From positions 62,001 through 126,000 of the forward strand of contig VCJN01001699.1 in NCBI GenBank assembly GCA_006384855.1: DNA of 64,000 nucleotides, written 5' to 3'. The notes beneath the pieces were generated by a model. That model was not told the origin of the DNA. It searched no databases and was given only the letters and a program-made list of their open reading frames with translations. Within the stretch, counting starts at the first letter, position 1, and every line of letters starts with the position of its first letter. The stretch comes from Tetraselmis striata. Its lineage: Eukaryota; Chlorophyta; Chlorodendrophyceae; Chlorodendrales; Chlorodendraceae. The position numbers were made by a program, and so were the translations under genes. Positions 9,862 through 31,417 of the stretch are shown one piece after another.

Positions 9862-11228
9862 ATGGTTCGTCGCGTGCCGCCCCATTCGGTGCGTGGCGGG
9901 TCGATGAGCGTACCGTTTTACAGTGTGAGTTTTCTGCGATTTTTGCTGCCGCTCTTGGCGTTGGTCGCCGTCGGCCGTAAGAAGCATGCTCGCGCTAAGA
10001 GCCAGGCCCGAGCCAAAGCCAAGGCAGCAGCAAAGGCAAGATTCGCTCAAGGCCGTCGAAATTCGGCCGACGATGGTCGTGGCTCGTACAATCAGTGGAG
10101 TGAGGAGGACATGGAGTAGTGTGCGCTCACATAACTCGTTAAGGCTGCTGCCTGTTCGAAAAACCCGCACATGGAGTTCAACTTAAAGGCGATTGCTACC
10201 AAGTGGAATAAACCCCGAAAGACCATGGAGCGCTACCACCACCGCCCTGGCCATTTTGAAGCCATGACGATGAGTTCAGCCAACAAGGGGAGAGGGATAC
10301 TATTGCGTGATGATGAGGAGGAGATACTCCAACTCCTCCTTTCCCGGCATGCTGCCGGTATTGCCATGCACCACACCCAATTGAAGTGGGTGATCATGGA
10401 GATCATCCGCAGGATGCCAACTCTCGAATCGGAAAGGCATGGATCAAGAACAACAAGCCCAGCTACACCTGGTACCGTCGCTTTCTGGACCGCCACTCAG
10501 ACATGATTAGCAGCCGAGTTGTCGAGAATCTAGACCCGAAACGGTGGAAGGTTTCTGTCGAGGACATCAAATCGCTGTATGACATTCTTCACAATCTGAG
10601 GAAGCAATACTCTGATCTACCAGCGCCGAACGTCCGCACCCTGGATGAAACTAACATTACGCCAGAGAGGCGGAAGTCAAGGGTGGCGAAAGGAGCTCGG
10701 CGCACGCACACAATGTGTAACGACGCACGCTTCTCTATGACAGCACTGCCCGTTGTCTTCGCAGATGGCATTGGGATGGCACCCCACTTCACCATTAAGG
10801 GCAAGAGCCGCCCTGAGTGGTGGGGCAGCCACAAATACTGTATGGATCTACTAGGGACAGAGTTTACATATGCCACCCTTTCTGTGCAAGACAATGGATG
10901 GATGGACTCAGAGATATTCCTAACCTGGTTCACTACGTATTTCTTTCCCTTCACTGCCGACCACCGCTCTGAGGAGACCCCGGTCATCCTGGTGCTTGAT
11001 AACTTCTCCGGGCATGTTCATCCTGCGACATTGAGAATGGCGAGGGAAAACAACGTCATCATGGTGGGGCTGCCCCCGCACTCTACGCACATCACCCAGC
11101 CCCGGGACGTCACCCTCATGAAGCCCCTGAAAAACTATTGGACTACAAAGCTCAACCACGATGGCGTCGAGAACTTCTCACTTTCCAGCCGGCCCTTAAC
11201 ACCGGGCGAAGTACTGCCTATGTACTAA
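9862..11228 (+). pseudogene. Pogo-like DDE transposase with frame breaks
   Basis: Transposase of the Tc1-mariner/pogo type. The first frame (9862-10119) ends in YNQWSEEDME, the usual start of a psq-type helix-turn-helix, then hits a stop; the second (10171-10506) continues the DNA-binding part. The third (10386-11228) begins in a CENPB-type segment, KAWIKNNKPSYTWYRRFLDR, and runs through the DDE_1 domain: first Asp in LDETNI, second in LVLDNFSGH, third in ITQPRDVTLMKPLK. All three catalytic Asp are present, so the break is recent or partly explained by unrecognised introns. Between frames two and three a single-base shift near 10420 would join the two. No terminal repeats were found. GC content is close to that of host genes. 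Confidence 0.8.
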
Positions 11229-14935: not shown

Positions 14936-17872
14936 GTGTCTGACCAAGCAGAATTCAAGAGACTGAATTATGCCTATGGTCCAGTCACTTTTGATGCCTG
15001 TGCCTCAGCATATTATGCTGTCTGTTCAGATTATTGCAGTGCTGAAAAACCATTTCTGCAACAGGATATCAAAGGTAAAACTGTGTTCATCAATCCAGTA
15101 AATGATGACACAGCCCTGCCTATCTTGCAGCATTTTGAGATGCAAAGACAAGCTAGAGTCATTATTGTTATCTTTTGACACAAGAGGCATTATTGTTATG
15201 CCCAGATGGTCCTCACAATTAGGACAATCCTGCTGGAAACCGCTGCTTTCAAAATATTAAGAAATTCACAGCTACCCGCCTGGAACATATCTGTTTCACA
15301 CAACCAGTTCAGTGACTGATACTGAACCTATGGGACCCACTGAGTGGTACGTTGATGTCTATCTTGCTGACTATACTGTTGAGGAACGTTCAGCCCAGGC
15401 AATTAATGACGTCGTTACCACTGAAGAACTCAAAACCATGCCGGCTGAACAGCAAGGTAAGGAATATAAACCAAAAGCCACAAAGTCCCATCAGTCACGT
15501 ATGATGACAGAAAAATGTTTTGTTACCAGCAAGTCTGATCATGATTTATTGCTGTTACACCCCACGTGTGCTGCATTTAATATAACACCTTCAGTACTGG
15601 TTGACAGCGGTGCTACTTTGAACTTTGCCAGCACCTAGTGTGTCAAAGAAAATAAAATACCAACTGCACCACTTCAAAATAAAGTAGGAGTTATTCTTGC
15701 TGATGGTAGAATGGTTCTCGCTTCACAAAAAATCACCCTTGAATTAAATATCAACAATTACACAATACCCATTGACTTCACAGTCACACCGTTACAAAAT
15801 AATTTTAATCTGGTTTTAGGGATACAATTCCTGAAACGACACAATCCACATGTTGAGTGGGAATCTGGTCTGATGACATTTCTCACATGACTGAAAGTCC
15901 AATGCCAAACAGAGCCCCGCCAGGCTAATGCCAGAATGATTCATGCTAATACCATGGCCAGAGAGATTGCCAAGCATGACCCTGACACTGTTCATTTCCG
16001 TGTCATTGTTAAACACGACAATGCCACCAAAGAGAGCAATGAGCTAGATATTGATGATGAGATAAATACAATTGACACTGACCAGTCTGCAGCTTATACC
16101 GCTCAGATCAGATACTTATTGCGAAGGCATAAACCAATATGCTCTCCGCTTGACAACCGTCCACAATTACGCCCTGGTCTTGATTATGAGATCCCTCTTG
16201 TTCCTGATGCTCAAGTTTCTGCAGGAAAAATACACAGATTATCACCTGCAGATTTAGAGGAACTAAGAACACAGCTGAATTCTTTTCTTGAGAAACAGTT
16301 TATACAGGAGACGTCCTTCTCTCCATATGCAGTTGTCCTCTTCGCCCGCAAGGCCAGTGGCGGTCTGCGCATGTGCATTGACTACCGTCAATTGAATAAG
16401 TACACCAAACAGGTTGAGTCGACGCATTACAGTTATAACTGACCATGCCACATTGAGGCATTTGCCTACACAGGAAGGACTAGGCAGACGCCATGCCCTA
16501 TGGTTACATGAAATTTCACCATACATGGCAGTCAACCCACAGACTAATGAACCTGTGTTGCAGATATTATATCGCAAAGGCGCTGACAGTGAGGCTGATG
16601 CTCTCTCTCGCCGGCCTGACTTGCAGTTTGCATTGACTGAATATGAAAACCAGCTGGTCGAAGCTGACCTCGAACAAATGCATGACTATTTGTCAGCAAT
16701 GTCCGCCTTGCAGATTGACAGCAAGGTGATCAGCGAGATCAAAGCTGCCTACATCATTGATGCTGCCTACAGCCATGGACGCACCCCTAACGGTGGGCGA
16801 CATGATGAGACTGATGGTCTCTACTACACGGCAGATAAGGTCTGCATACCCAATGATTCTGAACTGAGAAAACTCATCATTGAGGAGTATCATGTTGGTA
16901 ATGGACACACCAACCATACCCGCACTCTTTCCAACATACTGCGTATGTTTTGGTGGCCACGCATGAATACCACAGTTAAGCATTACTGCAAACACTGTGA
17001 TACTTGCGTTAGAATCAAAGCAGCTACCACCAAGCCGTATGGTTCTTTATTTCCCTTGCCAAAGGCAACCAAGCCTTGGGAGATAATCTCTATGGATTTT
17101 ATAACCAACTTGCCTGAGGTGGATGGCTACGATGCTATTGCTACATTTGTTGATACATTCACCAAATAGTCACATTTTGTGCCATGCAATATTAAGATTG
17201 ATGCGACACAGTTGGCCAGATTATATTTGGGCAATATTTACAGACACCGTGGTCTCAGCAGAAGTATCATCTCTGACAGAGATCCCAGGTTTACTTCAGT
17301 GTTCTGGAAATCGTTGTTTACAGCTCTGCAAACTAAGCTAAATATTTCCAGCGCTTATCGCCCGCAGACTGACGGTCAAACTGAACGCACCCACAGAACT
17401 ATTTAGCAAATATTACGTGCGTTTGTTCGCAAGCAACATGACTCTTGGTTGAGTTATTTGGCTCTTGCTGAATTTTCTTACAACAATTCAGTCCATTCAG
17501 CAACACATTATGCCCCTTTTGTGGCAATTTATGGCATGATGCCACTGACACCACCTGATATGATTGCTACTGCCAACCAGCAAGATGCACGCAACACAGT
17601 TGCAAATATGCAAGATATTCACATGTTGATTACTGAGCAACTGAAGCTTGCTGATGAATATCAAAAGGTCTATGCCGACCGCAAAACCAGCCATGTTGAG
17701 TTCGCAGAAGGAGACAAAGCCTGGCTCTCAACGGAGCACTTGCTTATACGCAACCAGCCGGCGCGCAAGTTCCGACAGCGCTACATCGGCCCCTACCCGG
17801 TCACGTCCAAGATCTCCGGCCAGGCGTATCGTCTACGCCTACCACCAACGTTCGACTGCCACAATATGTTGT
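14936..17872 (+). pseudogene. AT-richer Ty3-type gag-pol segment, internally deleted and with stops
   Basis: In order: a small domain (14936-15178) with YGPVTFDACAS and VFINPVNDD, resembling the adenine-methyltransferase-like domain seen in some algal retroelements; an aspartic protease with VDSGAT and LVLGIQFLKRHNP; the first part of reverse transcriptase (GGLRMCIDYRQLNKYTK); a deletion removing the RT catalytic core; the end of RNase H (ITDHATLRHLPTQEGL); and integrase with an HHCC zinc region, SMDFITNLP, SDRDPRFTS and RPQTDGQTER. The last 110 bp (17763-17872) are GC-rich and nearly match the integrase end at 14345-14452 on the other strand. In-frame stops: TAG 15636, TGA 15888, TAG 17167, TAG 17404. 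It is not autonomous. Confidence 0.85.
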
Positions 17873-18359
17873 CAAATTGTCGAGAAGAAGAAGATGGAAG
17901 CCCCCGTTGTGGCGCCAACCCAGAACATCTCTCACAAGCTCGCCGACGTTCATGATTTCCCAGCAGTCAAGGCCTTTCTGGAGATTGTCGACAAGGAGAT
18001 TTCCGACCGCAACAAGATTGTCTTTGGGTTCCTGAGATGGAAGCATGGCTCGGTAGCCAGTTCAAGACCGATTCTATCGCGGTGGCTCACACCCACCAAC
18101 TTGCTGTGCTCAACAGCTATGAGCTTCAGGTTCACATTGTCATGGGTTGCGAGGTCCTGACTCACTTCGCCAACAAGACTGGAAACAAGCTTTCTTCAAG
18201 GCCGCTTTCCCCAACGGCATTCAGACAGCCGTCGGAGACTACGCGCGTGACATATGCATCAAGCCGAGCGACCCCAAGATGGCTACTTGTTGTGTCGACA
18301 TGCAGCGCAAGCTACAAGCTGCATTTGCTTTGCTGCATGAACCTTTCGCTGTGCCTTAG
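17868..18359 (+). pseudogene. Gag-like gene of the LTR element, uninterrupted inverted copy with frameshift
   Basis: Begins at a junction where integrase sequence runs directly into gag-like sequence. Frames contain HKLADVHDFPAVKAFLEI, MEAWLGSQFKTDSIAVAH and WKQAFFKAAFPNGIQTAVGD, ending KLQAAFALLHEPFAVP-stop. Compared with the minus-strand copy, 4 bases are missing near 18174 (AACAAGACTGG versus AACTATCAAGACTGG), which breaks the frame. The fold resembles a retroviral-type capsid region only in general character; naming it gag rests on its place just inside the 5' LTR of the minus-strand copy. It supplies the empty target site for the 12.3-kb element (GTGACATATGCATC at 18247-18260). Confidence 0.6.
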
Positions 18360-18574
18360 TACTTGCAAGTGCAGCGCATTTTGCAGGCGATTCCCAAGCA
18401 CGAGAGAGCCGAGGTGCAAAAGAGCCGTGGAATTGGAGCCGAGGTGCAATTTATTTTATTATGCATGGACTTCATCTGAGTCGAGACAGTCTCGTTGGCG
18501 TGGTTAGCCATCTTTTGCACCTCGGCTCTCTCGTGCTTGGGAATCGCCTACAAAATGCGCGGCACTTGCAAGTA

Positions 18575-18682
18575 CTAAGGCACAGCGAAAGGTTCATGCA
18601 GCAAAGCAAATGCAGCTTGTAGCTTGCGCTGCAAGTCGACACAACAAATAGCCATCTTGGGGTCGCTCAGCTTAATGCATAT
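18575..18682 (-). pseudogene. C-terminal end of the interrupted gag-like gene
   Basis: The minus-strand frame reads DPKMAICCVDLQRKLQAAFA and LHEPFAVP-stop, continuing the frame broken at 30968 by the 12.3-kb insertion. Its end at 18575-18577 is the stop codon corresponding to 18357-18359 in the inverted copy. Confidence 0.65.
18679..18682. other. Target-site duplication ATAT, left copy
   Basis: ATAT at 18679-18682 and again at 30964-30967. The uninterrupted gag copy has a single ATAT (GACATATGC at 18249-18257), so one copy was added on insertion. Confidence 0.85.
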
Positions 18683-18708
18683 AACAGTAATTCAACCTAT
18701 TTTGCCCC
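18683..18708 (+). repeat. Left terminal inverted repeat
   Basis: AACAGTAATTCAACCTATTT then TGCCCC. It pairs with the complement of 30938-30963, with mismatches at two positions. Just inside, both ends carry ATTTTGC.CCG motifs (one on the left, two on the right), possible subterminal binding sites. Confidence 0.85.
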
Positions 18709-18789
18709 GAGGCACGCGGTGCATTGTGGTTAGGTCTAAATTAGGGTTTGGGGGCAGCAGTGGGATTGCAAGCTAATATGAATGCCGGT

Positions 18790-19010
18790 TGGTTCATTTT
18801 GTGCCAAGTCGGGGAAACCAATTCCGTCCAAGCAGGGACAAATCAAAAGAGTGAAGGAAACGGGATGGTTACAAGAAGTTTGCGCCAATTCGGGGCTGAA
18901 ACTCTGTCCAAACTGGGACAAAAATAAGGGCGGGGGCCGTGATGGCTACAAGTAGTTTGTGCCGTCCGGGGCTGAAACTCTGTCAAAGCCGGGACAAAAC
19001 ATATGAGCGG
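18790..19010 (+). repeat. Left subterminal repeats with GGGACAAA motif
   Basis: Three diverged copies of a unit of about 70-80 bp: TTGTGCCAAGTCGGGG...GGGACAAAT, TTGCGCCAATTCGGGG...GGGACAAAA and TTGTGCCGTCCGGGG...GGGACAAAA. The same GGGACAAA core occurs in the intron at 30001-30157. A repeated subterminal motif is the usual layout for transposase binding sites. Confidence 0.7.
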
Positions 19011-19029
19011 CTAATTTTGCGGAATTGTA

Positions 19030-22000
19030 CTACATATCATCATCTTCGATCACATAATCCCCTCGGCGCTCTGCCGCCTCTTGCCTCTTCTTCGCTGCCG
19101 CAAGACGCTCTGTGAACTCCTCTGACACGGTCATTGGATGGGGTAGACCCGGCCACTTCTCGAAGTCAGTTGGACGCAGTCTTTGAGTCTCGTCCCATGG
19201 CTTCTCTTTGAACCATGAGGTCATCCTGGACTTCATCCCAGCGATTTGCGTCTTCTGGTTGCCAATGAGGATAATCTTCAAGTTCCTGTGTGTGAACGAG
19301 TAGGTATGATCCATATGGTCCCACCACACGGAAAAGGCCGCGGCGACCTGGAAAAGGCGTGGCAAACCGCACAAGGCGTTAATTTTTTTATGTTGATCCC
19401 ATTAAGACACTCACCCGGGTTGCACCCCTCACGCACCGCGGTTGTCCCGGTTCCGGCTGTGACGTCGACGATTGTTGTCCCGTCTGTTGCCGCCATCTTA
19501 AGGTGCTTGGCGAAGAGAGCGATAGGCTTTTGGTACTTGTTCACCGTCTGTCTGTTCTCGTCCTTCAATTTCGAACTGTCTTTGAAGTGACCCAACATGA
19601 TGGATGTAGAGAATCTGGAAAGGCACAACCGGCTTAGCGAGTAGAAATATACAAGCCGGCTATTTTCCACGGATCAAATCTCACCTTCGGGGATCATCGA
19701 AACGGATGTTGTCAGCTATGATGCTTGGCGGGGGCTTCCTGACGTAGAGGTAGTACTCAGCGTCGTGACGCAGAGAGCTGCCCATCTTCATCCCGCAATC
19801 CTTGGCCCAAGTCAGGACGTGATAGATGAGGTCCTCAGCTTGTTTTTGAACGGCTGTGATTGCGGATCCAAGTTGCTGGTCCGAGAGGTGAATGAAGAAA
19901 TGGCACCCATCGAGAGCAGTGTGGACGTCAGAAGATCCAGTCAGGATATTCAACTGCCTGCGCGGGGGAAAAATCGGGAATGAGATAAATGAAAGCACAG
20001 TCATCTACGCACCGGGGTTGTGGGGGTTGTCTTGCCTGGCGAAAGCAAACACGTCGTTGAAGTCGTCCGTACCCCACGCAGCATCCTTCGAGTCCCATGT
20101 GTGCGAACCAGCTCCGAAAAGCGCGTCGGCAATGAAGACTGTTGCCTTTCTAGCACGAATTGCCGACATGGCGTCCGCGACGAATTGTTTTGTCGCGGGA
20201 GCCTTGAAGTTCCCCTCCACAATGCAAGTCTTGCAAAGCTCCGTGTTCAACCACACCTTGTGATCCTTGTCGACCCCTTCTCCCTTGGGCATCACCGGAA
20301 GTTCCTCGGCCTGTGCGTATTAGAAAACAGATTCGGGTTAATGCCTCACAACGAAAATTCAGAAGAGCATTTGTGGTTGCACAAGATCTTAGTTACCTTC
20401 ATCGATATCCACAGCTCATTAGAAACATTCGGAGCGGAAACCGCGATAAGCTCCGGCGCACATGCGAGAAGAGCAAACTCTGTGAAGAAGGAGATGACCA
20501 AGTCCGGCATCTGATTCTTTATGCGATACGCCTCACTCCTGATGGTGGTGTTGGTGGCCGCGATATGCTCTCGAACCGGTAGTGGTGTGAGACAATCGGC
20601 GGATTTCATGTCCCCCCATCTGGCAGGAGGGGCCAGCAAGACCATCAAAGGACCGGAGCGATGAGCACCTTTGAACAAATCCTGGAACTTTCTGGGGAAG
20701 CCTGTTGGGTTGAGGTCATCAACCTTGGCTCGGAACTTGGTGATGGCGTCAAGGCGAGCGGCCGCTTGCTCATCCGACACTTTGTCTTGCACATCCCAAT
20801 CGATTATGTGGTCCGAGAGATATTTCCCCCAATTCCTGGCCGGTTCGTCCGGCGTCAGCAGTTGGATTGTCTCCCTGCCCTTGGCCGTGTCAATGACATT
20901 CATGAGCTTGATGCTTGCTCGACGCAAGAGATCGCGAAACCTCCAGGTCTCAATCATCGCGAGCCACTCCGCGTTGGTGTGCGTAACAGCCATGGGGCCA
21001 TTGTCGCCGGCATGCTTAATGGCATCCACCAGCTCGTAGAGGCTCGGGGTCACACTGTGCTCGCCTTGGATGAGCAGTCCAACCACAAGGTACATCTGGC
21101 CCACAGGGAGATCCGCGCTGTCGCTCTGCTTGGCAAGAGACGGCTCGTCTAGCCAGGGCGCATGGGGTCCAAAGCCAACATCCTGGGTCGAAAAACAAAC
21201 TTCAGTACGGAGAAAGACATGTTAGTATTCCATATGATTAAGACACTGGGGTCGGTCACAACTTACCTCCATGAGGGCGACTCGGAAGTGAGCTCTGTCT
21301 TTCCCGAAGCCGTACTTCTTGTTATCGAGGATTGTATTGATAGGCTTTCGAATTGCTTCGTAAACCTTCCTCACTTCCTTCTGGGTGAGTTGCCTGCCGT
21401 AATTGAGACGCTCGACTCTATCGAGTTCTTGCTGGTAGTACACAAATAGGTCTCGGAGTTTGGTTATGGCTTCGTCCCATCCTCGAACACCGAGGTCAAC
21501 ATGCCGGTAGGCTTCAGAAATCTGCTCAAGGGGCTCAAAAACACTGCGCAAATCATTTGTCAGAATCTAATAGCATTAACAACACGATGAATTTTCATCA
21601 TGTACGCAGCTCACCGTTGTGGGCGCGAGCAGAGGTCAATCAAATTTGAGAACTCGCTGCTCTTCTCATCTTTGATGCCGATCTTCTCAAGTTCAACTTG
21701 AAGAACTTCAGACTTCTTGAACTCCTTCACTACTCTGATTTGCGGAAATGCCCTAAAGCCGGGGCGATTTGCATCATGTTCTGCATACCAGCTCTCGAAA
21801 CATCTGCGAAGGTTCTGCAGAAACAATTGCACCGATTTCAAAACTCCGAACGATTGTACCTCGATGACAAACCGTTTCGTCCCGCTGATGAGAGAACGTT
21901 TCGCCCCTTTTAATGACAGAACGTTTCGTCCCACTAATGACAAACCGTTTCGTCCCGCTGATGACAAACCGTTTCGTCCCACTGTGACATATTTTTAACC

Positions 22001-25000
22001 CGCTAACGACAGAACGACTTTTGTCACACTTTACGCCTATATTTGCTGCCACGGTCAGCTTAATAATAATTTGGGAGAATGGGCCACTCACCAGGAGTTT
22101 GTGCATCGACGTGTCTCCCACGACGGTGTGACCCGCCTCGTTGAGCTTCATAGACATGTAGCGGCAGACTTCCGGCGAGAGGCCGATGTACATCTTAGCC
22201 GACGTGAGGTGGATGCCTTTGTTGGCTTTGTAGATTTCCGGGTAGTTTTCTTTCACCATGCGCTTCGCCTCCCGTCTGTGGCTGCCGTCGATGTTGGCTT
22301 GAAGCGCGCCGTAGGCGCTAAGAAACTCGATGATGACGTCGATCTCTGGCTTGTAGGAACTTGAATCCGCCAACCTCGGGTTCTCCCCGCCTTCGTGTGC
22401 TGCGACTAGCTCCTTGAAGTTGGCCATGGTCAGAGCGAGGGGCTCGTACTGGAGAAACAATCGCGGTTCTTGTGGACTACTGGAAAGGACACCGAGAAAT
22501 TCTCGGCGGACAGGGAAGGATTCCTCTGAATAACAAATGCAAGAAATGGATGTCAGTAAGTTGCATTGTGTATTGATTTATATGTAACTACACATATCTG
22601 ACTTGGATAGGTACAACAGGTCGCGATAGGCTTTTACCTTGTAGCTTTGCGCCACCATATTGCAGTCTTGCAGCTTTGGGGAACGGAATTCAAATTCCGG
22701 CGGCGGAGCGACGAACTTATCGGATATGAAGCTGAAAATGTGAGGCAGCCCCGTATCCTTGTCGACGACGAGGTTGACTCTGTCGGCGTATAACGTGTTG
22801 ATGTCGCCACCGTGAGATGTCTTCACCTCTGGATCAGCAATCTCGACTCTGAGGTGGCCGTAAGAGATCCAGTCGACGGCACCGGTGTTGTGGAAGCCAT
22901 TCAAGGCCGGCGGGACGGCCAACGTGTTGACGTATGGAAGCGCGTTCTTAAAATCCTTGTCAATGTTGGTCAAGTCATCGATGTCAATCTGACCAGACGC
23001 GAAACCTGTCAGCGCCTGCGCCAGCACATTGCGCTCGACCAAAGTCTATGCGTAGTAAGACTAGAACCGCGGTTGGAAGCAGAGTGGCGGCTGGATCGCG
23101 TGGAGTAGCAACCTCTCAAAGCTGACATCGATCCTGAACTCCTTGTGCACTGTCAAGCGATAAGGTTCAAGAGAGATCTGCGGTAACAAGCATAAGAATA
23201 TTAATACTTATTGAAACACGACATTGACACGAATTCAGACATCATATAAGCTTTACTCACCTCGTAGTTTCCGGCCGAGTCTAGCTCGACGTCCTTGATC
23301 TTTCCGATACACGCGAGAAGTGGCCCCTTCGGATCATCGAAAAAGTCCTTGCCAGTCAGCAGGCTCGCCTTGTGCAATTCGATGTACAAATAGATCTCTA
23401 CCTCAGCACTTGCGTTCTTGAACCAATGGATAGTCCAGCTCCTTGAGGTAAAGTCGCTGTAGGAGTCATTTTCTTGGGACCCGTCCCTCTCGTCAAAGAA
23501 GTCGTCGTAAGAGGCGACCGTCATCAGCTTTGTCTTCCTCTCGGGTCCAGGAGTGCCGGTGATGTCGAGAGCTTGCTTACGCTTCTCTGCCGCCCGTTGC
23601 CTCTGTTCTTCCTCTGTGCCGAAGACCTCTTCATCCGTGCACACACTGAGGAATTCAGGAACCCTTCTCGGAGCCTCGGCAATAGGGGCTCGAGAACCAG
23701 AGGCTCCAGAACAAGACGCTTGCCCGGTAGTCGGCGCTGGAGTCTCGAGCTCGGCCTCTGGCTCCGGGTCAAGCCGAGTGGGCTCGGGCTCCGGCTCCGG
23801 CTCAGTGTGCTCTATTTCAGGCTCAAGCTCTGTTTCCGGTACTTGAGATGGGCCTTTAGACAAAGAAGAGCCTTGAGTTGGGGAACCTGTAAAGAATGAG
23901 TAGAGAGTACTCAACACACCTGCAGTGGGCGTCACGATTAACTACTGAACGGTATCGCCATACACCATCAAAGCCAAGCGTAATTTTTCTTACCTGGGGA
24001 TCCCGATTTACCAGCTGCTTCCGACGCGGTTGCCTGCGCCAATTTACGACCTGTTGGAACGTCAGATAACTCATTGACGAGAAAGTAATCGAAGGGAGTG
24101 AGAAGGCAGGGATTGATGCGTTCAGTCACAATTACCTGGAGTCACAATCGTCTCTGAAACCTTTTCTTTTCCCTTGGATTCCTTTGAAGCTTGAGTCGCT
24201 ACTGGCTCATGTGCGCGTCCTTTCGAACTTGTCAACACACATGATTTCAAACAATGTAAATATGACACAGTGCACTCACAAAGGCAGGGATTGATACCTT
24301 CAGTCACAATTACCTGGAATCACAATCGTCTCTGAAACCTTTTCTTTCCCCTTGGATTCCTTTAAAGCTTTAGTCGGTACTGGCTCATGTGCGCGTCCTT
24401 TCGAACCTGTCAACACACATGATTTCAACCAATGTCAATATGACACAGTGCACTCACAAAAATCATATGATTGGAGAGGCAAGGACCTGATTGATAGTAA
24501 GCTTGCATGAGTTTTTTCGTAATCGATTAGCCTTCGCGCTGTCTGCATTTGAGCATCTAAGAGGACATGGCCGCTCTTGATTCGCGCCGTCAAAAGAGCG
24601 GCGGCCGATCTTTCTCCTTGCGAGTGCGTGCCGTAAATCGGCACTCTACCTCCTAAAAGGCTCGGTTTCCAGGGGTTACCTGATGCCTCAGCGCCCGCTC
24701 TAGCTGCATAAGCTGAGGCTGCACGGCTCTTCTTCGCCGCCGGCTGCTCGGGCACAAAGATGACGCCTTGTGTTTTCTCCCGACTAGCGCTCCGAGCGCA
24801 TCGAATTCTTTTGCTTTCTCGGTAGGTTTTGATGTCCGCTTGGACCTTCAACCTATAAATATCATATCCTGTCAGACCGTTTCGTCCCACTGATGACCGA
24901 CCGTTTCGTCCCACTGATGACAGACCGTTTCGTCCCACTGATGACAGACCGTTTCGTCCCACTGATGACAAAACTTTTCGTCCCGCTGATGACAGACCGT

Positions 25001-26186
25001 TTCGTCCCGCTGATGACGGACCGTTTCGTCCCGCTGATGACAGACCGTTTCGTCCCACGGATGACAGACCGTTTCGTCCCACTGATGACAGAACGTTTCG
25101 TCCCACTGATGACAAACCGTTTCGTCCCACTGATGACAGACCGTTTCGTCCCACTGATGACAGACCGTTTCGTCCCACTGATGACAGAACGTATCGTCCC
25201 GCTGATGACAAACCGTTTCGTCCCACTGATGGCAAACCGTTTCGTCCCGCTGATGACAAACCGTTTCGTCCCACTGATGACAAACCGTTTCGGCCCACTG
25301 ATGACAAGCAAAGCGTTTCGTCCCACTGATGACAAAGCGTTTCGTCCCACTGATGACAAACCGTTTCGTCCCGCTAATGACAAACCGTTTCGTCCCACTG
25401 ATGACATACCGTTTCGTCCCACTGATGACAGACCGTTTCGTCCCACTGATGACAAACCGTTTCGTCCCACTGATGACAAACCGTTTCGTCCCACTGATGA
25501 CAGACCGTTTCGTCCCACTGATGACAAACCGTTTCGTCCCGCTGATGACAAACCGTTTCGTCCCACTGATGACGAACCGATTTCGTCCCACTGATGACAG
25601 ACCGTTTCGTCCCACTGATGACAAAACTACTTTCAATACATTATGTACTGCGGTTTAATAATGTAATGTATTTAAGTACTGCGCTTCTCCCTAATATTAA
25701 ACCACTCCTTACGGCGGAGTACATGCAGAGGTTCCCCCTGGCCGCTCTTCACCCCCACCCCCTCCCACCACCAATTAGCATCGATCCTTACTGCTTGCCG
25801 CAGCTGCCTCGACGGGACGTAATACTACCCTGCAGGACCTTGATGCCGCTCGTCTCGTTTGGGTTTCTATTCCCACTCGTCTGCCTACACCTCGAGCGGT
25901 CCTAGATTACACCGCTTCTACAGGGAACCCTAACCGAACTCGCTAGATCTGGCCGCATCACGCGTCGAGCAGGCAGGCGGCTACTGTACGCTGCCACTCG
26001 TCTGCCTACACCTCGAGTGGTCCTAGATTACACCGCTTCTACAGTGAACCCTAACCGAACTCGCTAGATCTGGCCGTATCACGCGTCGAGCAGGCAGGCA
26101 GCTACTGTACGCGCGCGCAACTCACCTGGGGTGGCGTCGTCCTTGTCTTCCTTGTCCTTGGCAGGCTCGTTCTTCTTCGGCGCCAT
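19030..26186 (-). CDS. Element-encoded multi-exon protein with a C-terminal beta-class-like N4/N6 methyltransferase fold
   Basis: Exons with matched GT-AG phases: 26186-26126, 24406-24314, 24227-24136 (acceptor damaged), 24050-23994, 23886-23261, about 23177-23121 and 23053-22607 (junctions unsure), 22525-22092, 21814-21615, 21543-21267, 21182-20397, 20310-20009, 19957-19685, 19614-19437, 19347-19030. The product starts MAPKKNEPAKDKEDKDD, then a Glu/Pro-rich linker, then about 700 residues I do not recognise. The last four exons look like an N4-cytosine/N6-adenine methyltransferase in beta order: motif IV position FIADALFGAGSH, then KYQKPIALFAKHL, then the AdoMet loop VDVTAGTGTTAVAAAF formed across the last intron, then IILIGNQKTQ. 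Motif IV is usually DPPY-like; here it reads DALF, so activity is uncertain. Starts back to back with the plus-strand gene. An extra open segment (24852-24463) has incompatible phases. Confidence 0.65.
21862..21990 (+). repeat. 24-bp minisatellite, array 1 (five to six copies)
   Basis: Degenerate copies of CCGTTTCGTCCC(A/G)CTGATGACA. It lies in the intron between exons 22525-22092 and 21814-21615 of the minus-strand gene. Same orientation on the plus strand as the two larger arrays. Confidence 0.9.
24120..24460 (-). repeat. Tandem duplication of an exon of the methyltransferase-type gene
   Basis: Two copies, about 178 bp apart, of a 93-bp exon (SKGRAHEPV...ESKGKEKVSETIV) with its flanking intron. 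The exon is symmetric (phase 1 at both ends), so duplication keeps the frame. In the downstream copy the acceptor CAG|GT has become CAAGT, shifting or losing the splice site. Confidence 0.75.
24876..25625 (+). repeat. 24-bp minisatellite, array 2 (about 31 copies)
   Basis: Unit CCGTTTCGTCCCACTGATGA plus CAGA or CAAA. Copies differ mainly at A/G in CCCACTG/CCCGCTG and in the CAGA/CAAA end. It lies in a large intron of the minus-strand gene, between exon 26186-26126 and the exons below 24.9 kb. Long frames across it (MTDRFVPL repeats and the like) are consequences of the 24-bp period. Confidence 0.95.
25873..26113. repeat. Tandem duplication of 121 bp
   Basis: Two near-identical copies (25873-25993 and 25994-26113), each with CACTCGTCTGCCTACACCTC and ending GCTACTGTACGC. 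Lies in the first intron of the minus-strand gene just after its exon 1 donor. No coding content. Confidence 0.85.
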
Positions 26187-26730
26187 TCTGGCGGTAGGTA
26201 GGTTGACGCGGTAGATGAGCGGGTTTCTTGGTGGGAAGCGGTGAGGGAGAGGTGGAAATGACGTGGTTTCTGTCTGCCGCCGCTCTGACCCCTGCTGGAC
26301 CAACGGCGCGCGTGCGCACACTACAGTGTACCTCGTCGTCGTCATCAAGTTCATGTATTTTGCACTGCGACGAATATACAGGGCTAACTATTGCGACTAT
26401 ATATTAATATTACTGGAAGATAAAATATTCCCTACTCGAGAGTCATAACGGTACGAGAGTACAGTGGCGTGGCAATAATATTCCTTCATGGGATGATATA
26501 TTCCTTGGATTGGATTCGGGTGTACTTACTAGTATAGAACTATTTCCGACATACGAAAGAAACACGAAATAATACGGTATTTGAGTCATCAATTATTTTG
26601 ACCCGTAGCTGGATATTATGCACCCCGGTCTACGGCCCGTCCGAGAACGGTCATCGGCCGTCACTCTTCCTCACCACATACATATCACAGTCCTTCACCC
26701 CCCCACCCCCACCCACTCGCCCCGCGCTGC
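26187..26730. promoter_or_regulatory. Divergent promoter region between the two genes of the 12.3-kb element
   Basis: Start codons at 26186 (minus) and 26731 (plus) face away from each other across 544 bp. The middle (26370-26600) is AT-rich, in contrast to the flanking coding DNA. Shared regulation of both genes is inferred from position only; I see no defined promoter element. Confidence 0.5.
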
Positions 26731-29700
26731 ATGGCGGCGGTCGAAAGCATGGCCTCTTCTCCAGGATCCGGCGCGTCGGACACTACAGTTACATTACCGC
26801 TGTGTTCGTGCCGCAGCGGGTACTCGTGTGATTGCGACGCGCGTGCGAGTGATCGTAAGGAGCCTGAGAAAAGGAAGTACACGTGGGGCAAGGGCTGCGA
26901 TGAGGTCGCCGAAAGCGATAATGGCAAGGTCTCGTCTCTGATCAGCAAGCGCACCTCTCGCGATTGTATCCGCCTCATGCTCGCCAAGGAGGCTAGCGAG
27001 CGGTCGCCATGCTGTTCGCGCAAGTGCGTGCACAAGCTATACACACAGTGCGGAGAGGCCCTCGTTGATGCCGTGTTGGATCGTGCGTTGACCGTATACT
27101 CTGGCAATCAGAACCGCTCCTTCGACCGGCTCGCTCAGGTTCTCAGGGGTGGCTACGAGTCGGCATCCGACAAGTTCGATTACATGTTCGATCACGGTGG
27201 CTACTTGCGATCTTTCGATCATCGCGGCCCCATCTACACGTGTGGGCGTGCGTGGGAGGCCTTGCATCAGGTCTCGAAACACAGACGTCTCGTGATCCAG
27301 CGGTCGGTGGTGGATAACGAACCCACGTACATCAGGCAGCGCAAGCAATACGAGAGCAGACAAACCGGACTGAGGGAGCATGTGCGCATGTTTCTCGAGC
27401 ACTTCTTCTCGGATGACCTCGGTCACGTCGAGATCATGCCTTTTCATGACGGAAACAGCGAGACCTTCAAGAAGCACCTACCTCCCTGGATGACCAAGAT
27501 TTGCGTCTACTACTACTACAAGTCGTGGGCCGAGGACGACAACGCCATTCTCCGTGGTGAGGCCCATTTTGTCCCACTGATGACATACCGTTTCGTCCCG
27601 CCGACGACAGACCGTTTCGTCCCACTGATGACAAACCGTTTCGTCCCACTGAGGACAAACCGTTTTGTCCCGCTGATGACAGACCGTTTTGTCCCACTGA
27701 TGACAAACCGTTTCGTCCCGCTAATTACACACCGTTTTTGTCCCGCTGATGACAAACCGTTTCGTCCCACTGATGACAGACCGTTTCGTCCCGCTGATGA
27801 CAAACCGTTTCGTCCCACTGATGACAAACCGTTTCGTCCCACTGATGACAAACCGTTTCGTCCCACTGATGACAGACCGTTTCGTCCCGCTGATGACAAA
27901 CCGTTTCGTCCCGCTGATGACAAACCGTTTTGTCCCACTGATGACAAACCGTTTCGTCCCACCGATGACATGCCGTTTTGTCCCACTGATGACAAACCGT
28001 TTTGTCTCGCTGATGACAAACCGTTTCGTCCCGCTATCGCCAGAACGTTTAGTCCCACCGACGCCGGACCGATTTCGTCCCACTGATGACATAACGTTTC
28101 GCACCGCTCATGGCATACCGTTTCGTCCCACCGACGACAAAAGCATTTGTCCCACATAATTAGCCGATATCGTCCCACTGCAGAGAGAACGTCTTGTCCC
28201 ACTGCTGAGAGACGGTTTTGTCCCACTACTGACATACCGTTTCGTCACACTGATGACAGATTGTTTCGCCATGCTGATTACATAATTATTCACCCACTAC
28301 CGATATAATTATTTCGTCCACTTTAGACCGAACTTTTCTGTCTCGCATTATGCGACCTTATTTGTATACCGACCTATCATGCCCCTACCCCTTTGTAGAT
28401 TTGGCTACCGAGAGCGAAGTGAAGCTCGCATCGTTCGACACTTTCCGCCGGACTTGGAAGGAAGACTTCCCGGATGTCACCACGCCGAAGGTGAAGCGAT
28501 TCAGCCACTGTCCCATATGCGCGGCGGGCAAAGCACTCAGAGACCAAGCTCGCGAGATTTGCACAAAGGACATGACGCCAGAGGAACGTCAAGTGCACCG
28601 TCAACATCAGCAGCTGGTGAGGCGTCAGGTCAGAGCTGAGCAGAAGGTACACCTCGAGAGAGTGCGCCAGGAACGAAGGGATCTGAACAACGCCGTCTTC
28701 CAGTCGCGCCTTGGCCATGGAAACTTCTTCTTCTTCGAAATTGATAGCATGGACTCCGCGAAGACCCTGCTGCCTCACTGGGTTCGCATCCCCAAGACTG
28801 TGAAGCCCGACATGCTCCTCAAGTACCACCTCACCTGTGTGAAGTACGACGGATACCGCCCGGACGACATCTACTACTACACCAACACCATCCCCCACGA
28901 TTCGTCCACGACGTGCACTCTGATATGGATCACGATCATGAAGGTGAGCTCGTTAGCCTCCCGATAGGTTCGCCGTGGTTGTCCGGTAGCCATGGACTGA
29001 TGAAATCTTGTCTGCGATGCAGGAAATTCAACACCGTGGTAGAAAGATTCCGTACATCAGAATCCAGATGGACAACACCGTCAGGGAGAACAAGAATAGG
29101 AACGTGGCGGCCCTCTGCAATTGGCTTGTGTCTATCGGCATCTGCGACGTCATTCATTTGGTCTTCTTGCCTGTCGGGCACACTCACGAACGGGTTGACC
29201 AGATCTTCAGCCGCATCAGTCTTGCGCTATCTCGCAGCTCCGCCTACACAATCGAGGCCTTTCTTGACTTGGTGGCGAAGGCATTCTCGCCCACTCCGGA
29301 GATTGCTGAGCTCTCATTCTCCCTCGACTTCTCTGAGTGGTTAAGGCCCCATTTCCAAGACCACATTCAGGACATCAGTAAGCCGCACAAATTCGAGTTC
29401 ACCCGTGACGACGCCGCCGCGTCTGGCGGCTCGTTGCGCACCGCCTTGTGGTCCAACACACCGCTTTCTGAGCCCGTGCAGATCTTGAAGAGCGCGCCAA
29501 CTGGGACGCCCGAGATTCGTGCGGGCCGGCCCCTTTTGTACGCTCTCTGCGACAAAAAGAAGCCCGACGCGGTGAAGGTCCAGAGGTACTTGGATGATTT
29601 CAAGAAGGTCAGGTCGTACATCACGGACCTGGCGGTCCAGTGGCACTTCTCCCCAGTCGAGCGCGAGAGCTGGAAGAATCTGCTCGACGACTTGGATGAG

Positions 29701-30670
29701 ATGCAAACTGCTCCTTCGGCAGCTTTCTCCGGGTTCTGGCCGCAACGGAAAGAGGAAGTTGACGACTTCTTGCGCGAGCACGGGCAGACCGCGCCTGCTG
29801 AGGCACGTCACACGATGGCTACCAACGCAGACCTCAACAATGCCGAAGCCGCTCGCGTGGAAGCCGAGGTTCGTGCTCAAGTGCTTCAAGATGACAGCGC
29901 CTTCCGGGGAGTTCACGCCGGCGCCAAGGAGAGGCTTCATGACAACACATCGCCCAGCGATGCAAAGGGCTCGAACCTCGTTGTCATCGACGTCTCCGAT
30001 GTGAGTCCCATTGTTTGTCATTTTTGTCCTTTACGGGACAAAACAATTTGGTTCTTCTACCTTGCTTGTTATTTTGTCCCAACTGGGACAAAAATGGCGT
30101 GGCGTCTCGCTCGGGACTAACATAGCTCGCGGTCTTGGTCATCGTTCGGTGCATGAGGAAGACAAGTGTCCTGAAACTCTTGGTGATTGGGAGTCGAGAT
30201 TTGTCATCGGGCTTGTGAAGTCGCGCGAGACTACCGAAGACACGTTGACCGTGGCCGTATACGAGCCCTTCCATGCCGATGCAAAGGGCAAACCCCTCAT
30301 GCCCCTATGGTTGTACGCGCAGACAAAAGGAGGGAAGAAGCCAGTTGACACAAGCTGGGAGAAGTGCCTGACGCTTCCTTGGAAGCTTGTTGAAGCCGTC
30401 CCCCTATCGTACGCGAAGGCCATCCACGACGCGTCGGGAAGTCGAGAGGTGTTCAACGAGGACGGCACCATGGTCAGAAAGAAGTGGTACGGTAAAAGCG
30501 TCCAAGTCGTGAAGACATACGCGCAAACTGGGTGGCAAATCAGCCAGCCACGGAACAACTGCGTCCACGTCATGCCAACCACCCCAGCGCAACGCAAACC
30601 CGGCGGAGTCGTCAAGTTTAACGCAGCCACGAAGAAGGACTTGCTTGAGTTGGGGATGCTCAACGAATAA
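26731..30670 (+). CDS. Element-encoded protein with RNase H-like transposase motifs (DUF7869-like)
   Basis: Exons: 26731-27556, 28399-28943, 29023-30000, then probably 30158-30670, with in-phase GT-AG junctions; about 953 residues. The N-terminal exon has a Cys-rich start (CSCRSGYSCDC) and CCSRKC. The central region has features I associate with an uncharacterised family (recalled as DUF7869) common in algal and invertebrate genomes: FFFFEIDSMDSAKT, IQMDNTVRENKNRNV and FLPVGHTHERVDQIFSRIS. Conserved Asp, Asp-Asn, Glu and His-x-His fit an RNase H-like nuclease, hence transposase as a guess. The intron 27557-28398 consists almost wholly of minisatellite array 3. The intron at 30001-30157 has a firm donor; the acceptor at 30156-30157 is the one that keeps phase. 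An AATAATCATAATAAAT stretch after the stop may serve polyadenylation. Confidence 0.65.
27569..28290 (+). repeat. 24-bp minisatellite, array 3 (about 30 copies)
   Basis: Same unit as array 2, regular from 27569 to about 28020 and decaying towards 28290. It fills the intron 27557-28398 of the plus-strand gene. Orientation relative to the plus strand is the same as in arrays 1 and 2, although those lie in a gene on the other strand. Confidence 0.95.
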
Positions 30671-30937
30671 ATTATCAGCAACGTCTTGTGGCTAGCTAGC
30701 CGCTGGATGTAATAATCATAATAAATATTGATTTCATTGCCGCATCTTTTCCCTTTTTGGACAAAATGCTCCAAAACCAACATTGGATATGCGTCGCGGC
30801 TGGCCTTCATGTTGTTGAATGCTGCACTGCACCCAAGGTCTACAAACCCAAGCTACATCACCAGTGAGTCTTAAGTACTGATAGTAAACCAGGGAACTAG
30901 GGTATAAACAAACCCTACGGTGCAAAATGAATTCCAC

Positions 30938-30963
30938 GGCGCAAAATAGGTTAAATTACTGTT
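30938..30963 (-). repeat. Right terminal inverted repeat
   Basis: On the minus strand AACAGTAATTTAACCTATTT then TGCGCC. Followed at 30964-30967 by ATAT, the right target duplication. Further inside, ATTTTGC.CCGT occurs twice on the minus strand (around 30938 and 30924). Confidence 0.85.
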
Positions 30964-30967
30964 ATAT

Positions 30968-31417
30968 GTCACGCGCGCAGTCTCCGATGGCTGTCTGAAT
31001 GCCCTTGAGGAAAGCGGCCTTGAAGAAAGCTTGTTTCCAGTCTTGATAGTTGGCGAAGTGAGTCAGGACCTCGCAGCCCATGACAATGTGAACCTGTGGC
31101 TCATGGCTGTTGAGCACAGCAAGTTGGTGGGTGTGAGCCGCCGCGATAGAATCGGTCTTGAACTTGCGACCGAGCCATGCTTCCATCTCAGGAACCCAAG
31201 CTTGTTGCGGTCGGAAATCTCCTTGTCGGCATTCTCCAAAAAGGCCTTGACTGCTGGGAAATCATGAACGTCGGCGAACTTTGTGAGAGATGTTCTGGGT
31301 TGGCGCCACAACGCGGGCTTCCAGCATCTTCTTCTCGACAATTTGACGCAGAGACTGCTCGGCGGGTGGACCACCGGGAGGGTAGCCGGCTTGACGGGCG
31401 CTCCGCTGCGATGCCAT
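30968..31417 (-). pseudogene. N-terminal part of the gag-like gene, cut by the 12.3-kb insertion
   Basis: Starts at ATG 31417 (MASQRSARQAGYPPGGPP), followed by VVAPTQNISHK, a one-base insertion (CACAAAG against CACAAG in the inverted copy), then DVHDFPAVKAFLEN, MEAWLGRKFKTDSIAAAH and THFANYQDWKQAFFKAAF up to the ATAT target. Here the region around THFANYQDW is intact, while the inverted copy has lost 4 bases. Its place 160 bp inside the 5' LTR is where gag begins in LTR elements. Confidence 0.6.

Follow-up and report, generated by a model that had tools for sequence, protein, structure and literature searches.

The transposon and its two genes

The window analysed here is a 64-kb stretch of DNA from the green alga Tetraselmis striata, and positions 18683-30963 of it (12.3 kb) constitute a DNA transposon whose terminal inverted repeats (TIRs) begin AACAGTAAT. 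The element carries two divergent, intron-bearing genes. One, here called T, encodes a protein of the Pfam domain-of-unknown-function family DUF7869 and is a putative transposase; the other, M, encodes a predicted amino-methyltransferase (MTase). The preliminary description of this locus had reported 26-bp inverted termini flanked on either side by ATAT, an uninterrupted copy of the same target at 18247-18260, and the two genes, all of which were found again, and annotated T. striata proteins match both genes. The uninterrupted target belongs to a stretch that repeats the flank in inverted orientation (17871-18255 against 30964-31347, 92% identity over 390 columns) and has ATAT one time only, so the ATAT pair is a genuine target-site duplication. 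The site that hosts the element is itself a nested inverted duplication, in which 18252-18682 folds back on itself (85%) and the left flank repeats the right flank in inverted orientation (92%).

Comparisons with other copies, as the preliminary description had suggested, establish the transposon firmly. Searches of the 224-Mb T. striata assembly returned 416 first-look candidates for the left end and 429 for the right end, and the best 40 of each were scored; identity was at least 96% in 40 of the 41 left-end matches listed and in 40 of 40 right-end matches. Other copies are flanked by 4-bp duplications of their own, identical in five cases (GCCC, AATT, GTAC, CCTG and TTGC) and agreeing at three of four bases in one (GCAG/GCAT), such that the duplication is identical in six of the seven two-ended copies including that in the window, with a chance expectation of 1/256 per copy. 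The end letters AACAG are present in 8/8 left and 30/30 right ends; in a different sample, the right ends on contigs C1059 and C1401 differ by one base. A duplication of fixed length and TIRs, the two marks of a class II DNA transposon, are thus found together in many copies at independent sites, and the claim of a DNA transposon stands.

The element has moved recently. Thirty right ends (that of the window and its 29 best matches) have identical ends, 30 different flanks and a mean difference of 0.42%, a value biased downward by the choice of best matches; even with this bias, the different flanks and small divergence make recent movement clear. Ten other copies, named below by contig, were fetched from the left-end list, and nine were compared after one ran past the end of its contig. 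Both ends and both genes lie within the fetched stretch in six of the nine. Copies without one gene, which the preliminary description had named as evidence against a two-gene element, do occur: T was not found within 14.6-14.9 kb of the left end in C340 and C42 (2/9). T exons 3-4 are missing from C1950. All three may be truncated or interrupted copies, and we read C340 and C42 as such. Together these observations describe a recently mobile, probably undescribed type of transposon with an unexpected, long-retained second gene.

Table 1. Features of the element and its borders (window positions)
Feature	Position	Strand	Remarks
Target-site duplication ATAT, left	18679..18682	.	Empty site 18247-18260 carries ATAT once
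Left terminal inverted repeat	18683..18708	+	AACAGTAATTCAACCTATTTTGCCCC
Three subterminal TGTCC-N6-GGACA palindromes	18825-18840, 18905-18920, 18981-18996	.	First-to-last set includes one exact copy and two that each deviate at a single base; candidate binding sites
Gene M	19030..26186	-	About 16 exons, inner limits approximate; N-terminal acidic/variable part, long middle, C-terminal predicted amino-methyltransferase
S-adenosylmethionine (AdoMet)-binding loop VDVTAGTGTT (motif I)	19440..19469	-	PF01555, E 1.3e-5
Motif IV position, DALF replacing DPPY (FIADALFG)	20116..20127	-	IADALFG matched 58 times among proteins compared
24-bp minisatellite, 5 units	21863..21989	+	Intron of M
M exon 9, four bases absent	22450..22451	-	Present in 6/9 copies; other three differ locally in other ways
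Two nonsense codons in M	23046..23063	-	TAG for CAG, TAG for TGG; 9/9 other copies read CAG, TGG
24-bp minisatellite, 31 units	24876..25625	+	Intron of M
Gene T, DUF7869 protein, putative DDE transposase	26731..30670	+	Exons 26731-27556, 28399-28943, 29023-30000, ~30149-30670
24-bp minisatellite, 29 units	27567..28258	+	First intron of T
Candidate first catalytic Asp (EIDSMDS, strand 1 of predicted core)	28743..28745	+	D in 14/14 rows with a residue (18 rows)
Candidate second catalytic Asp (QMDN, past strand 4)	29071..29073	+	D in 12/12 rows with a residue (18 rows)
Candidate third acidic residue, E or D, start of helix past strand 5	29164..29202	+	FLPVGHTHERVDQ; E and D each in 11/11 rows with a residue (18 rows)
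Two exact TGTCC-N6-GGACA palindromes	30025-30040, 30075-30090	.	Last T intron
Last T intron, acceptor lost	30147..30148	+	TTCGG here; TTAGG in 6/6 other copies covering the site
TGTCC-N6-GGACA palindrome, one mismatch	30748..30763	.	Close to right end
Right terminal inverted repeat	30938..30963	-	Terminal 12 bases same in 30/30 right ends examined
Target-site duplication ATAT, right	30964..30967	.

T is a putative DDE transposase

T scores 150 bits against the DUF7869 profile (PF25273), for which the curated cut-off is 26 bits, and the Joint Genome Institute (JGI) protein set for T. striata includes entries that match T without a difference across the region searched. This family is the FLPVGHTHE..DQ protein type of the preliminary description, which had proposed T as an RNase H-like transposase; the structure model agrees, in that the predicted core follows the RNase H strand order. 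In a structural second look, all 50 aligned rows are integrases or DDE transposases, a result that speaks only for the families listed there and leaves unlisted families possible. The structural matches include retroviral integrases, Mos1/SETMAR, IstA and TnsB. The candidate active-site residues correspond in the protein P0012 to D385, D468 and either E507 or D510; their positions fit the predicted secondary structure. No Pfam transposase family matches T at E 1 or better. Pfam contains a model for the Kyakuja-Dileera-Zisupton (KDZ) transposase domain, and T has no match to it at E 1 or better, nor at 0.1. A sequence search of solved structures with T returned nothing credible. On its predicted fold, T is most readily understood as a transposase whose DDE core is RNase H-like and would catalyse movement of the element.

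M resembles permuted adenine methyltransferases

In M, motif IV precedes the AdoMet-binding loop, the permuted order that the preliminary description had recognised as that of beta-class methyltransferases and that recurs along the structure model. Structure prediction for both products, another step it had suggested, thus gives an integrase-like T and a permuted amino-methyltransferase for M. Scores against the N6_N4_Mtase profile (PF01555, curated cut-off 26.7 bits) are 25.7 for the window model, 27.5 for P0118 of the same family (family 1), 39.4 for a diverged family 2 described below, and 20.8 for the metagenomic protein P0169. The three MTase lineages have DALF, DSNY or DANY at the motif IV position, retaining the Asp and the aromatic residue, and M does not contain the catalytic motif (D/N/S)PP(Y/F/W).

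The protein nearest to M is the adenine methylase CcrM, and the nearest solved structures and profiles are CcrM, MboIIA and M.BceJIV; MboIIA is also reached at 6e-4 in a sequence search of solved structures. Further structure matches include MTA1 complexes, METTL3-METTL14 and 8s9o, the rotifer N4CMT. CcrM, MboIIA and M.BceJIV have an intact DPPY-type motif, and they differ from M, which has a long N-terminal extension. From the model, M appears to be a permuted (beta-class) amino-methyltransferase of adenine-N6 type and would methylate DNA as such.

The gene pair recurs in a second, diverged family

Genome searches with P0067 and PF01555 gave match lists that share contigs and thereby uncovered a second family. 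It was sampled as 26 T matches at ~52-54% to P0067; since only the best candidates were scored, counts are lower bounds. A divergent MTase match lies within 30 kb of T in at least eight of the 26, six of them at 9.5-11.7 kb, and the MTase matches are free of stops on all eight paired contigs. One family-2 copy, on C2707, was read in parts. Across 276 alignment columns its MTase is 28% identical to the family-1 enzyme (E 1e-23), and across 186 aligned codons 35%; the T proteins of the two families share 48% over 170 codons. Identity between the families at the three codon positions is 0.48, 0.58 and 0.37 for the MTase and 0.55, 0.67 and 0.39 for T, a bias that is the mark of long selection on the protein in both genes. 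The M-side end of family 2, AACACTGATTCAA on C2707 and AACATTGATTCAAAATAAAT in most matches printed, is close to AACAGTAATTCAA of the window.

The pairing is also evident within family 1, in which a divergent MTase match lies 8.6-13.2 kb inward of 19 of the 40 right ends, and in the genome annotation. Among 67 numbered Tetraselmis T genes (from 74 matches), 27 have one of 97 numbered M genes within three gene numbers; random placement gives a mean of 0.83 and a maximum of 5 in 2000 trials. The pair is found in other full-length copies, which the preliminary description had named as support, as well as in a diverged second family. Since a distantly related element has this pair too, the methyltransferase probably belongs to the element, and the best explanation of these sequence comparisons is that M has been carried with T since before the two families split.

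Two annotated models, P0033 and P0054 (TSEL_005106 and TSEL_031801), match both T and M; these are likelier to be rearranged copies or annotation joins than fusions. Relatives of T (P0061 and P0066) and of M (P0169) are present on metagenome contigs of ~2 kb, which are too short for linkage, and give a hint that the pair extends beyond T. striata.

Intact and decayed copies

The window copy has decayed: M is interrupted by two nonsense codons and lacks four bases, and the last splice acceptor of T is lost (Table 1). Lesions were scored over T exons 1-4 and M exons 6-16. Within these exons, C1955 and C1497 (2/9) show no stop or frame change and have both ends and a perfect duplication, and C1302 is open apart from a single stop in M; exon 6 of M was covered to 87% in all three. 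The remaining six of the nine copies have both genes broken, or T missing. Since every exon scored is open in C1955 and C1497, some members of the family appear to be intact, and the earlier suggestion that the element is, or recently was, autonomous fits the family but not the copy in the window.

Changes common to at least two copies were taken to reflect the active lineage; this count leaves out M exons 7 and 9 and T exon 4, and alignments covering less than 60% of an exon were dropped. In T exon 3 (up to 34 copies) there are 14 synonymous (S) and 6 nonsynonymous (N) shared changes, and in T exons 1-2 (8 copies) 7 of each. M exons 6, 8, 10 and 11 (10 copies) have S 10 and N 25, or 0.98 of the neutral expectation, and M exon 12 (10 copies) is intermediate (S 12, N 15, 0.48 of neutral). 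The ratio of nonsynonymous to synonymous substitution rates (dN/dS) over ten copies is 0.34 for T, 0.66 for M and 0.79 for the MTase exons, in a run where M exons 7 and 9 were misframed and T exon 4 started inside an intron, which leaves the values for all of M and for exons 6-11 unreliable. T is under purifying selection, and the MTase shows no constraint in the recent burst, on few sites and fewer copies.

Palindromes and a shared minisatellite

The window contains 14 matches to the palindrome TGTCC-N6-GGACA with at most one mismatch, all of them within the element, whereas 2.28 are expected from shuffling and the maximum in 100 shuffles is 6. Eight of the 14 are units of the 24-bp minisatellite in the T intron, and three lie 142-314 bp from the left end. 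We propose the palindromes, from their sequence and placement, as candidate protein binding sites. One and the same 24-bp minisatellite occupies introns of both divergent genes, and its unit resembles the subterminal palindrome.

A proposed transposase with a putative methyltransferase partner

We interpret the locus as a member of a two-gene DNA transposon family that combines a DUF7869 DDE transposase with an amino-methyltransferase of adenine-N6 type acting in trans on element DNA, and assign this reading a probability of about 0.7. T would bind the ends, with the TIRs and the TGTCC-N6-GGACA palindromes as its probable contact points, and would cut and join with a 4-bp stagger to leave the 4-bp duplications. 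M would most likely act in trans, methylating adenines of element DNA and thereby keeping the element permissive or timing its transposition. Which sites M targets and how the transposon gains, whether by marking its own DNA or by countering silencing as the preliminary description had put forward, can be drawn from these data only by inference. In Chlamydomonas and several other eukaryotes, N6-methyladenine (6mA) is described as marking expressed genes, with 5-methylcytosine (5mC) confined to transposons (PMC12695648); given this division as that source presents it, self-written 6mA would be a plausible route to a permissive state.

Several observations weigh against this interpretation. The structure models have low mean predicted local distance difference test (pLDDT) values, 50.7 for T and 48.2 for M, and a Foldseek search with the whole T model gave no match at E 0.001 or better. 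In family 2, 18 of the 26 T matches have no adjacent MTase match among the matches listed, and the T-side end of the sole copy read is possibly truncated; only the M-side end is clear in that family, and its TIRs and duplications are no more than putative. Decay is common: of the nine other copies, seven have stops or frame changes in M, and six have a damaged T or none. The MTase exons 13-16 (12 family-1 copies) carry S 4 and N 13 shared changes, with no sign of constraint, and differ in this from T exon 3 (Fisher p 0.008), an argument that family 1 does not strictly need M at present, to be weighed beside the long-term retention of M. Both prolines of motif IV are gone in all three MTase lineages. 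Finally, the copies show no CpG decay signature of host cytosine methylation, with C/G transitions at 0.00414 at CpG and 0.00437 elsewhere. Because this test lends cytosine methylation no support, timing or end-marking is as likely a role for M as anti-silencing.

The loss of both prolines makes a dead enzyme the main rival. M could be a catalytically inactive methyltransferase fold that serves as a DNA-binding or scaffold partner, helping T to find the ends or recruiting a host adenine methyltransferase, much as METTL14 and MTA9 serve METTL3 and MTA1 as non-catalytic partners. The structure matches to MTA1 complexes and METTL3-METTL14 and the lack of constraint on the MTase exons in recent copies are consistent with such a role. 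Yet the motif IV Asp and aromatic residue, the Gly that follows and the D..GTGTT loop are kept at only ~30-40% identity, which exceeds what a dead site would need, and we consider this alternative unlikely, although it is the most serious of those weighed here. The same unconstrained exons, together with an M broken in the window copy and in most others, might instead indicate a captured passenger gene that hitchhikes and is of no use to the transposon. Against this, the same divergent pair is present in two families at 48% (T) and 35% (M) identity with the codon-position bias of constraint, and a useless gene is not expected to last so long, nor to remain stop-free on all eight paired family-2 contigs; a passenger is accordingly improbable.

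The remaining explanations concern the element rather than M. PMC10120064 reports Polinton-like viruses integrated in Tetraselmis, and MTases and integrases can be among the genes of such insertions, so a remnant of such a virus was considered. It is very improbable: the products scanned from between the TIRs include no recognisable gene other than T and M, the viral contigs scanned hold no relatives of either, and the duplications are of 4 bp, whereas Polintons are described as making 6 bp (PMC10045372). No capsid or DNA polymerase genes were recognised among the exon products scanned, no search aimed at capsids having been made. That T and M are unrelated host genes lying between chance inverted repeats has nothing in its favour and is refuted by whole-element copies with both genes at independent sites.

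Relation to known systems

The element shares TIRs, fixed-length duplications, an RNase H-like core and three acidic residues (here candidates) with DDE cut-and-paste transposons, and differs from them in its transposase family, DUF7869, and in ends that start AACAGT. The target of piggyBac elements is TTAA; here the duplications vary and the ends start AACAG, which sets the element apart from that group. By the account in PMC10045372, piggyBac ends are CC..GG. Ginger1 and Ginger2 have 4-bp duplications and an integrase-like core in common with the element, but PMC2836005 gives Ginger ends as TGTNR and Ginger1 targets as CCGG or CCGT, whereas the element has variable duplications and ends that start AACAG, and membership was rejected. 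Membership among KDZ elements was likewise rejected on the Pfam result given above.

TET/JBP dioxygenases are encoded by fungal transposons such as Kyakuja, Dileera, Zisupton and Plavaka, and oomycete transposons have been described with SET histone methyltransferases (PMC12730594). The fungal elements thus resemble this one in having a DNA-modification enzyme beside the transposase; theirs oxidises 5mC, whereas the enzyme here has an amino-methyltransferase fold and accompanies another transposase family (PMC12730594). An amino-methyltransferase borne by a transposon would stand to these erasers as the matching writer. The bdelloid rotifer N4CMT (PMC8885841) is a permuted bacterial-type amino-methyltransferase in a eukaryote, as M appears to be; it is a host gene with SPPY that helps to silence transposons and is reported to lack eukaryotic homologs, whereas M is transposon-borne and has D-x-[NL]-[YF]. 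Retention of the Asp and aromatic residue with loss of the prolines would amount to a novel version of a catalytic motif familiar from textbooks.

Among the best-ranked titles and abstracts of the open-licence literature, with Repbase outside the scope, no paper on DUF7869 was found, and none that reports transposons of this family or an amino-methyltransferase carried by a eukaryotic DNA transposon; the work listed on T. striata transposable elements and new superfamilies did not report the T-M pair. It is tempting to propose a new eukaryotic DNA transposon superfamily, marked out by a transposase of the DUF7869 family, duplications of 4 bp and ends that begin AACA, with its own adenine-methylating enzyme whose new motif D-x-[NL]-[YF] would serve to mark element DNA, perhaps at TGTCC-N6-GGACA, and so control the element's epigenetic state or couple transposition to replication; taken whole, this proposal is tentative, and we hold it at somewhat below even odds. 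DUF7869 gains a likely function, that of a transposase, and the nearly identical recent copies, some of them apparently intact, constitute a natural test system for this family.

Other features of the window and genome

GATC occurs 3.3 times per kb in the element and 2.4 times elsewhere in the window, and GANTC 2.9 and 2.4 times, counts made with no control and from which nothing is drawn. The 64-kb window has no Rfam match and no tRNA. A plus-strand reading frame at 10317-11225 resembles, by eye, a pogo/Tigger-type DDE transposase (VLDNFSGH..., LPPHSTHITQPRD), and plus-strand frames at 16396-17955, just left of the element, resemble, again by eye, a Ty3/gypsy RNase H and integrase. Elsewhere in the genome, stronger, stop-free N6_N4_Mtase matches (61-117 bits), to which no tie to the element was made, are located at C1010:99804-100724, C2009:26599-27024, C1597:22582-23154 and 15473-15940, and C803:199293-199844; these are possibly viral insertions or contaminants.

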